33,074 nucleotides of DNA. Source: Dehalococcoidia bacterium. GTDB taxonomy: Bacteria; Chloroflexota; Dehalococcoidia; WHTO01. Every line of letters begins with the position of its first letter. Position 1 is the first letter of the stretch. The position numbers were made by a program, and so were the translations under genes. Under the pieces are notes generated by a model. That model was not told where the DNA came from. It ran no database searches and saw only the letters and a list, made by a program, of their open reading frames with translations. The stretch is from assembly GCA_009377665.1 (NCBI GenBank), contig WHTO01000012.1, positions 1 through 33,074 of the forward strand, in the 5' to 3' direction. This document shows, piece by piece, positions 18,331 through 28,040 of the stretch.

Positions 18331-19388
18331 GTAAGACCACTGTGGGGATCCTTTTCGGCGGACGCAGCGGCGAGCATGAGGTCTCGGTTGTGTCGGCGCA
18401 GGGCGCCCTTGGCGCGATAGACACGGCGCGCTTCGAGCCGGTCGCCCTGGGTGTCACGCGGTCCGGGACCTGGCTCACCCCGGGTGAGACACGCGAGGCG
18501 CTACGCTCGCTGGCGCCCGGGCGTTACGAGCCCCTGCCCGAGGTCGACGCTAACCCGCTGCTCGTCCGCCACGAGGTGCTGCGGGCCGTGTCTGGGCTGG
18601 ATGTCGTCTTTCCGTTGATCCACGGACCCTACGGCGAGGATGGTTCGCTCCAGGGTTTCTTCAAGGTGGCCGGCATACCTTACGTCGGAGCTGGCGTCGC
18701 TGCCAGCGCGATTGGACTGGACAAGCAGCTGCAGAAGGCGATCTGGAAGCAGGCGGGCCTTCCCGTTGTCGAGTACCTGGCGGTGTCGCGGGAGGAATGG
18801 CTGGAGTCGCCGGACGAGGTCGCCCGCCGAGCCGAGGGCGACCTCGGGTACCCGGCCTTCGTGAAGCCATCAAACGGCGGGTCCAGCGTCGCCATCAGCA
18901 AGGTACGGTCGCGCGAGGACCTGGGCGAGGCAATGGACGCCGCGCTGGCCTATGGGCCGAAGGCCCTCGTCGAGAGGGCGATGACGGCCCACGAAGTGGA
19001 GTGCGCCGTCCTCGGCAACGAACGTCCCGAGGCGTCGCCGCTCGGCGAGATCATCCCCGGCCGCGAATTCTACGACTACGAGGCCAAGTACCTCGACGTG
19101 GGCACCAAGTACGCGGTGCCGCCGCGGATCCCGGCCGACCTGCAGCAGCAGATCAAGGAGATGGCGATAGCCGCCTACCGCGCTATCGGCTGCGAGGGCA
19201 TGGCTCGCGTCGACTTCTTCGTGGAGGACGGCGGGAGTATCTACCTGAACGAGATAAACACGATCCCCGGGTTCACGCCGATCAGCATGTACCCCCGTTT
19301 GTGGGCGGAAGCGGGTGTCTCATACACCGAACTTCTGACGAAGCTCATTGACCTGGCGCTGGAGCGTGCCGCAAGGGGTGACGACTGA
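18327..19388 (+). CDS. ddl: Ddl, D-alanine-D-alanine ligase
   Basis: The protein has 353 residues; the GTG start overlaps the murB stop (GTGA). It is an ATP-grasp enzyme with GGRSGEHEVSVVSAQGAL at the N-terminus. PLIHGPYGEDGSLQGFFKVAGIPYVGAG and the phosphate-binding VKPSNGGSSVAISKV follow. It ends with VDFFVEDGGSIYLNEINTIPGFT and SMYPRLW. The omega-loop reads EFYDYEAKY, with Tyr where vancomycin-resistance ligases differ, so it should make D-Ala-D-Ala rather than D-Ala-D-Lac. The product is used by MurF. The stop overlaps ftsQ by one base. Confidence 0.96.
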   Translation: MSKTTVGILFGGRSGEHEVSVVSAQGALGAIDTARFEPVALGVTRSGTWLTPGETREALRSLAPGRYEPLPEVDANPLLVRHEVLRAVSGLDVVFPLIHGPYGEDGSLQGFFKVAGIPYVGAGVAASAIGLDKQLQKAIWKQAGLPVVEYLAVSREEWLESPDEVARRAEGDLGYPAFVKPSNGGSSVAISKVRSREDLGEAMDAALAYGPKALVERAMTAHEVECAVLGNERPEASPLGEIIPGREFYDYEAKYLDVGTKYAVPPRIPADLQQQIKEMAIAAYRAIGCEGMARVDFFVEDGGSIYLNEINTIPGFTPISMYPRLWAEAGVSYTELLTKLIDLALERAARGDD

Positions 19389-20191
19389 TGGCGCGGGCGA
19401 TACCACGCAAGTCACCGCTACGCCGGGCCGCCCGGGCTTCCAGGCCATCGAGGCTCCGGATGCAGAGTCCGACGTTCTCGCGCCTCCCCTTCCCCGGCCA
19501 GGGTGCGGTTTTGCTGGCGCTGGTTGTCGCGGTCTTCGTTGGGCTGGCTGTCCTCGTTTACAACTCATCGTTTCTGCAGGTCCGCAGCTTCGAAGTAGCG
19601 GGCGTGCGCGTGCTGAACCAGGGAGCGCTTATTGAGCTCAGCCAGGCCTATGGCGAGAACATGCTGACTCTACGCACCGGCGAGGTCGAGGATCGCCTCG
19701 AAGCGAACGCATACGTGGCGGAGGCCACGGTCAGCCGTGACTGGCCGGGTGTCCTGCACATCCAGATAGTCGAGCGCGCTCCAATCGGCACCTGGCAGGT
19801 CGGCGGGTCGGCATTCCTGGTGGATGCCGAGGGCGTCGTGCTCGACGTACAGGTTGGAACGCCACCGGCCGGGACGATCCCGATCGCCGCCGTGGACGGG
19901 ACGGTGCCGCAAATTGGCGAGAGGGTGGACGCCGACGCGATCAACCTGATCGACCGGCTGCGCTCGGATATCCCCGCCTTGAGCGGCGAGAACGTCGCGT
20001 CGTTCGAATACAGCAGGCTCTTCGGTCTGACCGTGATTACTGCTTCAGGGATCCGCGTCGTCTTCGAGGACAGCAAGGACTACGACTACAAGCTGGCCAC
20101 CCTGGTGAGCACGCTTACCCAGGCGCGCGCCCAGGGGCTGGCTTTTTCGGTGATCGACCTCCGTTTTGGAGATAGTCCGGCATTGAGGTAA
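19388..20191 (+). CDS. ftsQ: FtsQ/DivIB-type division protein
   Basis: The protein has 267 residues, starting with an ATG that overlaps the ddl stop. A basic cytoplasmic tail of about 35 residues precedes one transmembrane helix (about 37-58). A POTRA domain follows (FLQVRSFEVAGVRVLNQGALIELSQAYGENML...). The FtsQ domain comes next, with VAEATVSRDWPGVLHIQIVERAPIGTW and AFLVDAEGVVLD. It links the FtsL/DivIC pair to the divisome outside the membrane. Its C-terminus is followed at once by AAGGAGGG, the ribosome site of a small ORF that leads to ftsA. Confidence 0.92.
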   Translation: MARAIPRKSPLRRAARASRPSRLRMQSPTFSRLPFPGQGAVLLALVVAVFVGLAVLVYNSSFLQVRSFEVAGVRVLNQGALIELSQAYGENMLTLRTGEVEDRLEANAYVAEATVSRDWPGVLHIQIVERAPIGTWQVGGSAFLVDAEGVVLDVQVGTPPAGTIPIAAVDGTVPQIGERVDADAINLIDRLRSDIPALSGENVASFEYSRLFGLTVITASGIRVVFEDSKDYDYKLATLVSTLTQARAQGLAFSVIDLRFGDSPALR

Positions 20192-20201
20192 AGGAGGGAA
20201 C

Positions 20202-20312
20202 GTGATGATGGACGCCTCGCCCGCGCCGCACGTCATCAACGACGGCCAGAACCATCATCTTTCGGCCCGGGCTTTGCCCGGGACCGCCAGTACAAGGGAG
20301 GAGCGATCGTGA
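20202..20312 (+). CDS. Candidate small ORF between ftsQ and ftsA (35-36 codons)
   Basis: This ORF is too short for the ORF track. AAGGAGGG overlaps the ftsQ stop and sits about six bases before GTG-ATG-ATG. The frame then runs 35-36 codons and ends in a TGA that overlaps the ftsA GTG by four bases (GTGA), the same junction used through this operon. The peptide starts MMDASPAPHVINDGQNHH and ends TREERS. It is soluble, has three His and no membrane segment. A CCCGGGC-TTT-GCCCGGG hairpin lies inside it, between its start and the ftsA ribosome site. It could be a small divisome protein, or a leader peptide that couples ftsA translation to ftsQ. No homologue is known to me. Confidence 0.55.
   Translation: MMMDASPAPHVINDGQNHHLSARALPGTASTREERS
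20266..20282 (+). repeat. Perfect hairpin before ftsA
   Basis: CCCGGGC and GCCCGGG form a 7-bp perfect stem with a TTT loop, inside the candidate small ORF and 26 bases before the ftsA start. It leaves the AAGGGAGGAG ribosome site of ftsA free. With no T tract it is more likely a translational or RNA-stability element than a terminator. Confidence 0.6.
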
Positions 20313-21565
20313 GAAAGTCGAACACCTTCGTCGCGATCGACATCGGCACGACGAAGGTCTGCACACTGGTCGGTGACCGCAACATCGAAGGCGACCTGAG
20401 AGTTCTCGGGATCGGGATGGCGCCGTCGACTGGAATCAGCAAGGGAATGGTGTCCTCGATCCAGGACACCATCGAGTCGGTCAGGGTCTCGGTCGCCAAG
20501 GCCGAGCGGGCTGCCGGTACCCGGATCCTCGCGGCCCACGTCGGCATTACCGGCAACCACATCGACTCGATCAACAACCGGGGCATAATCGCCGTCCCGA
20601 ACTCAGAGAAGGCGATCTCGCGGGAGGACGTCGAGAGGGTGCTGGATGGCGCCGGTATGGTTTCCCTGCCCAGCAACCGGCGGATAATGCACGTGCTACC
20701 GCGCCATTTCGAGGTTGATGGGCAGAGTGGGGTGACCGACCCGGTGGGGATGTTTGGCCTGAGGCTGGACGTCGAGGCCCACGTGATCACGGGCGCCCAG
20801 TCTGCCATCCAGAACCTGACGCGCTGCGTCGAAGCCGTGGGCGTGCAGGTCGAGAACCTTGTCCTCCAGCCCCTGGCCAGCGGCGACGCCGTCCTCGACG
20901 ACGAGGAACGGCGCCAGGGCGTCGTCCTTGCCGACATCGGTGGGGGCACCACCGATATCGCCATCTGGGTCGACGGCGCCGTCTATCACACCTCGGTCCT
21001 TCCGGTTGGTGGCTACCACCTGACCAAGGACCTCGTGGTGGGCCTGCGCACACCGTTCCACATAGCCGAGGACGCCAAGTCGCGCTATGGGCATGCCCTC
21101 CCCAGCCAGGTAAGCGCCGACGACGCCATCGAGATCGACGCCTTCGGTGGCGAGCGCCGGCGCCAGGTCACGCGGCGGAGGCTTTGCGAGATCATCCAGG
21201 CCAGGGCGGAGGAAGTGCTCGAGATGATCTTCGTCGAGGTCAAGCGGGCCGGCTTTGAGGAGCAAATCTCGGCGGGACTGATCCTGACCGGCGGCTCCGC
21301 CCGCCTGCCCGGGCTGGACGAGCTGGCCGAGCAGGTGCTGGCCGTGCCGGTGCGCATCGGTTATCCCCGCGGCGTGACCGGCCTCATCGACAACCTGCAG
21401 GACCCGGCGTACGCCACCAGCGTCGGCTTGCTCAAGTGGGCTGCGCACGGCGGCGAGGCGCCGGACGGCGCCGTCCGCAAGTCGAGCGGCGGGGCCAGCC
21501 CGTCCACTCTGCCGCGGATCTTCCGCTGGATGGGTGACCTCGTGAAGGCGCTGCTCCCGGCATGA
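20309..21565 (+). CDS. ftsA: FtsA, actin-like membrane tether of FtsZ
   Basis: The protein has 418 residues from a GTG with AAGGGAGGAG five bases upstream. The actin-like phosphate-1 motif is FVAIDIGTTKVCTLVG. The SHS2/1C subdomain follows, and phosphate-2 is VLADIGGGTTDIAIW. The adenosine motif is GLILTGGSARLPGLDELAEQVL. The last residues, LPRIFRWMGDLVKALLPA, form a clear amphipathic helix, the membrane-targeting sequence of FtsA. It binds the FtsZ C-terminal peptide and recruits the divisome. Its presence separates this organism from Actinobacteria, which lack FtsA. Confidence 0.96.
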   Translation: MRKSNTFVAIDIGTTKVCTLVGDRNIEGDLRVLGIGMAPSTGISKGMVSSIQDTIESVRVSVAKAERAAGTRILAAHVGITGNHIDSINNRGIIAVPNSEKAISREDVERVLDGAGMVSLPSNRRIMHVLPRHFEVDGQSGVTDPVGMFGLRLDVEAHVITGAQSAIQNLTRCVEAVGVQVENLVLQPLASGDAVLDDEERRQGVVLADIGGGTTDIAIWVDGAVYHTSVLPVGGYHLTKDLVVGLRTPFHIAEDAKSRYGHALPSQVSADDAIEIDAFGGERRRQVTRRRLCEIIQARAEEVLEMIFVEVKRAGFEEQISAGLILTGGSARLPGLDELAEQVLAVPVRIGYPRGVTGLIDNLQDPAYATSVGLLKWAAHGGEAPDGAVRKSSGGASPSTLPRIFRWMGDLVKALLPA

Positions 21566-21684
21566 GGATCGAGATGCTGTGCCGAGGCGCTGCCGCGGGG
21601 GGTGACTTATTGGGGTGAGCGAACGGAGCGTCCGAAGAGCGAGCTTGGAGCCCCGCCAGGGTTGCCAACACAGGAGGGACCTAT
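21566..21684 (+). other. ftsA-ftsZ spacer (leader of ftsZ)
   Basis: This is the longest gap inside the dcw cluster (119 bases). It holds a good ftsZ ribosome site, AGGAGGG about seven bases before the ATG. A weak foldable segment is also present (CGGAGCGTCCG plus outer GGGG/CCCC). No convincing -35/-10 pair was found. Extra ftsZ-specific transcription or RNA processing here is possible but not shown. Confidence 0.4.
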
Positions 21685-26669: not shown

Positions 26670-28040
26670 TTAGCGGCGCAGTGCGATCGTCACGGCCTCG
26701 CCCACCTCGACCCGGTCGAGCGTCGAGCGCAGCAGGGCCTGCGCTTCGGCGAGCCCGACATCGCCAGGGTGCTCGCAAAGCTGAGCAAGGGCTTCCCGCT
26801 CTCTTCTCACCACGGCCTCGTGGTGGCCTGGTCCTTGCTGTTCGCTAAGTGCGTACCGGCGCAGTTCGAGGTCCAGGCGCTCGCCGGCGATCGCCGCCGC
26901 CATGGTTTCGAGAGCTTCATCGAAAGAGGAGGAGCCCGCGAGCAAGCGGGCCATTCGTCCGTCGGTTGACCGCAGCTGCCTCTCGATCCCGTCCAATTCC
27001 TCGGCGACCGGAGCCGCGCTCTCGCGGTCAACGCTGGAGACGGTGACGCCTTCCGGCGGTTCCTCTGCCAGCGCGAGCAGGATCTTTTGCTCGAGGTCGT
27101 GGGCTCGCGTCGTGTTGTACTCGCAAATGCCGCGGTTGGTGCGCGATTGGCACTGGTAATAGCGGTAGACGGCTGTCTTTGATGAGCCATCGGTCTGGCG
27201 CTTCCAGGTTTGCCTGCGGCTGACGCCGATCATGTGGTTGCCGCAGCGTGCGCAGTAGACCAGCCCGGACAGCAGGAAGCCGCCGCTGGACCCACGGGCC
27301 GTGCCCGGGCTGCGACGTGAGGCCAGTTGCTCCTGCGCACGACGGAAGTCGTCCATAGCGACCAGCGGTGAATGGCTACCGGGGATGCGTACGCCCAGCC
27401 GGTTGTAATTTCCGAGGTAGGCGCGGTTACGCAGGACGTCGCGCACGCTGACCATAGTCCACATGTTTCCGAGCCGGGTGCGGTGGCCTTCCTCATTGAG
27501 ACGCCGCGCGATTGAGCGCACACCCAGGCCCTCGCGCACGTACATCGAAAAGATGTACCTCACGACGTTCGCTTCGGATGGGACGATCTGCAGCCGGCGT
27601 GAAGGACCCGCGCGGTAGCCGAATGGGAGGCGTCCGAGAACCTCCCCCCGCAGAGCCCTCTTCTGCATCGCCGCCCGAACCCGTTCGCCGGCTCCGTCGG
27701 CCGCGCTGGAGCGCGTCGCGTAGGCGCCGAAAACGTCGGTCTGGTCAAGCACAAGAACCAGGGTGCCGCACGTTCCCAGCCCGAGATAGGAGGCTACAAC
27801 GACCTCTCTTGAATCCCCGAGTGCCGAAACGCGCGGTACTACTGTCAGAGGGACATCTCCGCGGGGATCCTGCAGATAGCGAACGAGGTCGATGAAGCCC
27901 CGGCGCTCGTCCCCGCGGTCACGGAAGGTCGCGGCTACCTCGTGTCCCGACCCAGAACAATAGTCGAGGAAGGTTTGATTCTGTTCCGCGAGGCTTTCCG
28001 GGGATCCGGTGTCGCGGAAGTAGCCGCAGGCCCGCTTCAC
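26670..28040 (-). CDS. Serine-recombinase-like protein with degenerate catalytic domain
   Basis: The protein has 456 residues from a GTG that overlaps the previous stop by four bases. The C-terminal two-thirds is typical of large serine recombinases. It has a Recombinase domain (about 135-245, RLPFGYRAGP...ARRLNEEGHRTRLGNMWT...VRDVLRNRAYLGNYN), a zinc ribbon (C263-x2-C266 ... C297-x8-C306) and a helical tail. The N-terminal resolvase domain is recognisable but altered. The usual Y-x-R-x-S reads Y7-F-R9-D-T11, so the nucleophile Ser is Thr. The usual DRLxR motif reads PRVSA, keeping one Arg and losing the next. The likely Arg in ERRGF is kept. I infer a DNA-binding protein with little or no strand-exchange activity. 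No flanking att-like repeats or cargo were seen. Confidence 0.8.
   Translation of the reverse strand: MKRACGYFRDTGSPESLAEQNQTFLDYCSGSGHEVAATFRDRGDERRGFIDLVRYLQDPRGDVPLTVVPRVSALGDSREVVVASYLGLGTCGTLVLVLDQTDVFGAYATRSSAADGAGERVRAAMQKRALRGEVLGRLPFGYRAGPSRRLQIVPSEANVVRYIFSMYVREGLGVRSIARRLNEEGHRTRLGNMWTMVSVRDVLRNRAYLGNYNRLGVRIPGSHSPLVAMDDFRRAQEQLASRRSPGTARGSSGGFLLSGLVYCARCGNHMIGVSRRQTWKRQTDGSSKTAVYRYYQCQSRTNRGICEYNTTRAHDLEQKILLALAEEPPEGVTVSSVDRESAAPVAEELDGIERQLRSTDGRMARLLAGSSSFDEALETMAAAIAGERLDLELRRYALSEQQGPGHHEAVVRREREALAQLCEHPGDVGLAEAQALLRSTLDRVEVGEAVTIALRR

Follow-up and report, generated by a model that had tools for sequence, protein, structure and literature searches.

Termination-reinitiation at ATGA and TGATG junctions is a described way in which translation passes from one gene to the next (PMC10666635, PMC6728339), and in tested gene pairs coupling and reinitiation drop almost to zero at a distance of ~20 nucleotides (nt) (PMC10666635). 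Short open reading frames (ORFs) can take part in such coupling, and the closest precedent for the element reported here is the ORFs borne by mycobacterial interspersed repetitive units (MIRUs) at senX3-regX3 and other sites (Supply et al. 1997, as described in PMC12548453). MIRUs insert at start codons, and the ORF that they carry couples at -4 to the gene (PMC12548453). Here we analyze a short ORF at 20202-20312 on the plus strand of a 33,074-nt stretch of a Dehalococcoidia genome (contig WHTO01000012.1), hereafter the window, where it fills the spacer between the cell division genes ftsQ and ftsA. In our judgment this ORF is probably a translated bridge cistron that relays translational coupling from ftsQ to ftsA, for which the frame matters and the peptide is dispensable.

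The window ORF resembles the MIRU-borne ORFs in that an ORF in inserted sequence ends on the downstream start with a 4-nt overlap, here the GTGA at 20309-20312, and the MIRU peptide is likewise thought not to matter. However, MIRUs are dispersed, mobile and repeated, whereas the spacer in the window occurs once in its genome, so the ORF is not classed as a MIRU; moreover, the bridging ORFs of different Dehalococcoidia lineages have no sequence in common and all lie at one junction, ftsQ-ftsA. Coupling upstream ORFs and the leader cistrons of bicistronic designs (PMC12548453) are alike in that translating a short ORF places a ribosome at a start codon that overlaps it and removes structure there, but those ORFs head transcripts or are engineered, whereas the window ORF lies between two operon genes and is joined to both. 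The mgtQ ORF between mgtC and mgtB of Salmonella (PMC8092293) also combines a strong Shine-Dalgarno sequence, a short frame and an unusually long operon spacer, and promotes downstream translation; yet it has only 8 codons, lies 51 nt after mgtC and does not span its spacer, and it works via ribosome destabilization and alternative stem-loops (PMC8092293), none of which is seen at the window ORF. As for termination-reinitiation itself, the junctions of bridging ORFs are its standard -4 and -1 overlaps, but bridges relay two or three such overlaps through an ORF that is not a gene. No description of an ftsQ-ftsA bridge or relay was found in the open-access library searched.

A short ORF joins ftsQ to ftsA

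The upstream cistron, ftsQ (19388-20191, plus strand), is identified by Pfam (POTRA_1, E 4e-12; FtsQ_DivIB_C, E 8e-9), and its C-terminal end, IDLRFGDSPALR, aligns with the FtsQ ends of relatives. Its TAA stop codon at 20189-20191 shares its last base with a Shine-Dalgarno sequence, AAGGAGGG (20191-20198, plus strand), whose AAGGAGG ends 4 nt before the GTG start of the bridging ORF and 7 nt before the first of two in-frame ATG codons that follow. The ORF comprises 36 codons plus TGA and translates as VMMDASPAPHVINDGQNHHLSARALPGTASTREERS. Within its 3' end lies the Shine-Dalgarno sequence of ftsA, AAGGGAGGAG (20294-20303, plus strand), and its TGA (20310-20312) overlaps the ftsA GTG (20309-20311) by 4 nt. 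The downstream cistron, ftsA (20309-21565, plus strand), matches Pfam FtsA and SHS2_FTSA (FtsA by Pfam, E 4e-48) and is 55-61% identical to FtsA of other Dehalococcoidia. The ftsQ-ftsA spacer measures 117 nt, and the ORF, at +10 nt from the ftsQ stop and -4 to ftsA, falls at both ends within the distances of coupled cistrons (a -4/-1 overlap or within ~20 nt). Upstream in the operon, the murC-murB (17395) and murB-ddl (18327) junctions show the same 4-nt overlap. A mis-called ftsQ end or an N-terminal extension of ftsA was ruled out, as homologues place both gene ends outside the gap. The description given in an earlier note on this DNA, namely an ORF at 20202-20312 between ftsQ and ftsA, a strong ribosome site at the ftsQ stop, suitably spaced before GTG-ATG-ATG, a 4-base overlap with ftsA like those of the neighboring genes and an internal CCCGGGC/GCCCGGG hairpin (arms at 20266-20272 and 20276-20282), is thus accurate to the base.

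Because reinitiation is nearly nil beyond ~20 nt (PMC10666635), coupling of ftsA to ftsQ would be lost across a spacer of 117 nt, and the ORF would make translation continuous again. We propose that the spacer of this lineage grew to a length across which a ribosome terminating on ftsQ could no longer reach the ftsA start, and that a ribosome finishing ftsQ, or one recruited by the Shine-Dalgarno sequence on the ftsQ stop, would instead start at the GTG/ATG codons at 20202-20210. It would then read 34-36 codons, melt the hairpin, clear the ftsA ribosome site and terminate on the GTGA overlap, where ftsA would be reinitiated. We infer in this way translation of the ORF, coupling through it and an effect on the level of FtsA, whereas the anatomy, the codon periodicity and the recurrence of the double junction with unrelated sequences in other lineages are observed directly.

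The ORF has a strong ribosome site and gene-like codon periodicity

The chance expectation was estimated from 20,000 dinucleotide shuffles of the window spacer in which the ftsA ribosome site was kept fixed. A gap-spanning ORF ending on ftsA arose in 14.5% of the shuffles, and therefore the mere presence of a bridging ORF is no argument. When a Shine-Dalgarno match was demanded as well, the rate was 4.3% for matches of at least 5 nt and 0.01% for matches of at least 7 nt. A bare bridging ORF is thus unremarkable in GC-rich DNA, and the strong Shine-Dalgarno sequence is the remarkable part.

Codon usage was scored with a model built from the window's own genes. The ORF has a log-likelihood of +3.5 bits, whereas the remaining two frames of that strand score -29.5 and -7.6. 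Among real coding stretches this value ranks at the 9th percentile, but it exceeds that of every out-of-frame stretch and of 99.1% of open shuffles. Its GC content at the three codon positions (GC1/GC2/GC3) is 0.64/0.53/0.81, compared with 0.68/0.48/0.83 in the window genes, and the excess at GC3 has a p value of 0.012. The first half of the ORF is the more gene-like (0.67/0.33/0.94), whereas the second half, which holds the hairpin and the ftsA ribosome site, is less so.

Bridging ORFs with unrelated sequences recur in Dehalococcoidia

The source genome (2.96 Mb, 86% complete) is the sole member of its genus, family and order among the genomes compared, and a contig scan with an FtsA alignment returned relatives from other Dehalococcoidia orders only, the nearest FtsA proteins being 55-61% identical. 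Across the ftsQ-ftsA junctions of 108 distinct loci, most spacers range from -4 to 32 nt. Among the 28 loci with spacers of 40-200 nt, 18 contain a single gap-spanning ORF that ends on the ftsA start. Two families, f66 and f2, account for much of this pattern. All six f66 genomes possess a bridge of 26-46 codons, placed at -4 on the ftsQ stop and +4 on ftsA, and their spacers (73, 82, 85, 97, 109 and 133 nt) all have the 1 mod 3 length that the two overlaps demand. In f2 the ORF has its start at -4 on the ftsQ stop (ATGA/GTGA) and finishes at +1 on ftsA; almost every f2 genome whose spacer is long has such a bridge, with spacers of 46, 64, 67, 88 and 100 nt, again all 1 mod 3. There are two length exceptions in f2: at 57 nt (L066), ftsQ is connected to ftsA by a chain of two mini-ORFs (5 and 15 codons) with 4-nt overlaps, and at 48 nt (L072) the ORF stops 14 nt inside ftsA. 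As a separate observation, the 133-nt spacer of L229, whose junction is the same as that of L036, opens with near-repeats of ~18 nt that each contain an ATGA (CCCGGTGCAATGA, CCTGGTGCGATGA, CCTGGTGCAATGA), a pattern resembling duplication of the end of ftsQ by units of three.

For a statistical test, strict relays were defined as those in which every junction is a -4/-1 overlap, or 0-15 nt with a Shine-Dalgarno sequence, in spacers of 36-200 nt. Such relays are found in 17 of 29 long ftsQ-ftsA spacers, whereas 10.1 (standard deviation 1.8) are expected from fixed-length shuffles and 4.7 (standard deviation 1.8) from randomized-length shuffles. Since the length and ends of a spacer carry the frame from the outset, the fixed-length expectation comes out high, and much of the relay signal lies in the lengths. 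At the control junction, ftsA-ftsZ, relays occur in 3 of 49 spacers against 2.3 expected. The excess of GC3 over GC1/GC2 also goes beyond that of open shuffles (pooled z 3.5 for 18 ORFs; 2.9 without the window ORF), is negative in the other frames and is absent from ftsA-ftsZ spacers (z 0.8). On the FtsA tree, the bridge label takes 9 changes, at least 7 of them forced by well-supported branches; these are gains or losses, and the number of bridge origins is not fixed by them. In the window itself, the ftsA-ftsZ spacer (21566-21684, 119 nt) holds no bridging ORF by the same criteria.

An AUG-stop element precedes ftsA in other lineages

Among 52 loci in which no ftsQ is recognized before ftsA, 27 carry a Shine-Dalgarno sequence followed by AUG and an immediate stop codon, 49-70 nt upstream of ftsA, whereas shuffles expect 0.8. 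The stop codon is UGA in 21, UAG in 3 and UAA in 3; its identity varies while a stop is kept, which argues for translation of the element. The upstream gene is rsmH in the loci checked (L094 and L142). In a profile of 26 loci (L089, L091, L093, L094, L096, L098, L099, L102, L103, L105, L108, L110, L111, L118, L119, L122, L123, L125, L128, L131, L132, L137, L138, L142, L145 and L148), just the Shine-Dalgarno sequence, an A-rich spacer and the AUG-stop stand out; the 27th match, L143, may represent no more than the terminus of the gene before it. The element is absent from all 108 ftsQ-ftsA junctions and from all 78 ftsA-ftsZ junctions. We considered the out-of-frame GTG within AUGUGA as the real start in these rsmH-ftsA lineages, which is less likely, since 6 of the 26 profiled loci keep the AUG-stop without a GTG.

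The AUG-stop element suggests that this class more widely places a mini-cistron ahead of ftsA. We entertain, tentatively and as a generalization that may well prove too broad, the idea that Dehalococcoidia ftsA is commonly served by a mini-cistron that does nothing but hand it ribosomes, either a bridge ORF (15-46 codons, framed at both ends, with turnover of sequence) or, after rsmH, a bare Shine-Dalgarno-AUG-stop, so that the relay, rather than the ribosome site of ftsA itself, would set FtsA synthesis.

Alternative explanations

The main rival to a bridge cistron is a chance ORF in a GC-rich spacer, with AAGGAGGG as the old ftsA ribosome site, displaced by insertion of the spacer; such an ORF may be translated and have no role. 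Spanning frames arise in 14.5% of the shuffles, and a GTGA at the junction supplies the TGA automatically. In addition, neighboring families have spacers of 10-25 nt with one Shine-Dalgarno sequence and an ftsA start at the same distance from the ftsQ stop as the GTG of the window ORF, so that this site resembles an old ftsA start. However, the codon periodicity of the frame lies in the top 0.9% of open shuffles and its GC3 excess has a p value of 0.012; relays are enriched at ftsQ-ftsA and not at ftsA-ftsZ in the same class; and the f2 and f66 spacers shift in length almost only by multiples of three. We consequently regard pure chance as unlikely, albeit far from negligible. A displaced site is also compatible with a bridge cistron, of which a displaced start is a likely origin. 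Further observations, together with the 14.5% shuffle rate, weigh against the bridge reading. The ftsA gene has a good Shine-Dalgarno sequence of its own and could be translated uncoupled; the relatives compared, all from other orders, give no evidence of selection on the window ORF itself; and the statistical signal comes mostly from two related groups, f2 and f66, whose loci are not independent. Moreover, the FtsA that the tree puts nearest, albeit with a weak placement, belongs to a locus with a 54-nt spacer and no bridge (L019, group f26), and long spacers without a bridge occur in two of two f60 loci, one of two f17 loci and five more loci.

The earlier note offered two functions for the ORF, a small divisome protein or a leader peptide that sets ftsA levels. 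A lineage-specific small divisome protein acting as a peptide would fit the gene-like codon usage, the strong Shine-Dalgarno sequence and the position in the division and cell wall (dcw) cluster, but we consider it highly improbable. No homologue of the peptide turned up in 393 genomes of the class (best non-self E 0.015), and it is thus not kept in the relatives among them, all of which come from other orders; in most of the closest relatives by FtsA, the gap holds no frame at all; a Pfam search of it gave no family; and it is hydrophilic, without a membrane segment. The peptides of bridging ORFs in other lineages are unrelated between families and strongly variable within them. Only one close pair, L031 and L229 of f66, has alignable bridge sequences. 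There, 2 synonymous and 3 non-synonymous changes give proportions of non-synonymous (pN) and synonymous (pS) changes of 0.058 and 0.118, which with only 5 changes is weak evidence, whereas ftsA of the same pair changes less at amino-acid sites, with 83 synonymous and 12 non-synonymous changes (pN 0.013, pS 0.266); the few changes in the bridge thus give no sign of strong amino-acid constraint. As to the leader peptide, its coupling part is supported by codon periodicity and by recurrent, frame-maintained ORFs that overlap at both ends, while nothing speaks for a regulatory role of the peptide or the hairpin. An RNA-level regulator, in which the hairpin, or translation of the peptide through it, gates ftsA like an attenuator, could draw on CCCGGGC-TTT-GCCCGGG (20266-20282, plus strand), a perfect inverted repeat of 7 bp within the ORF, and on an 8-base inverted repeat, GATGATGG/CCATCATC, that links the start region to mid-ORF. 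Yet the region folds no better than its shuffles (z -0.50) and matches no Rfam family, no terminator-like site was found in the ORF and no T-run 3' of the hairpin, and the hairpin shows no pairing with the Shine-Dalgarno sequence of ftsA and is not among the parts of the bridges of other lineages. Neither a stable conserved structure nor a terminator was thus detected before ftsA; the hairpin is probably incidental, and we think such regulation highly improbable. A repeated element was ruled out as well, since the spacer and the hairpin each occur a single time in the genome. Elsewhere in the window, a 456-aa ORF on the minus strand (26670-28040) resembles, by eye only, a large serine recombinase.

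Implications for translational coupling

If the ftsQ-ftsA bridge is real, selection can keep a reading frame as a path for ribosomes without selection on the peptide. ORFs of this kind would mimic small genes, with ribosome footprints, gene-like starts and a kept frame, without being protein genes, and this has consequences for the interpretation of small-protein catalogues. Strict translational coupling of ftsA to ftsQ would then be worth keeping despite expansion of the spacer, and these junctions would provide a natural test of the view that coupling requires overlaps, not scanning.
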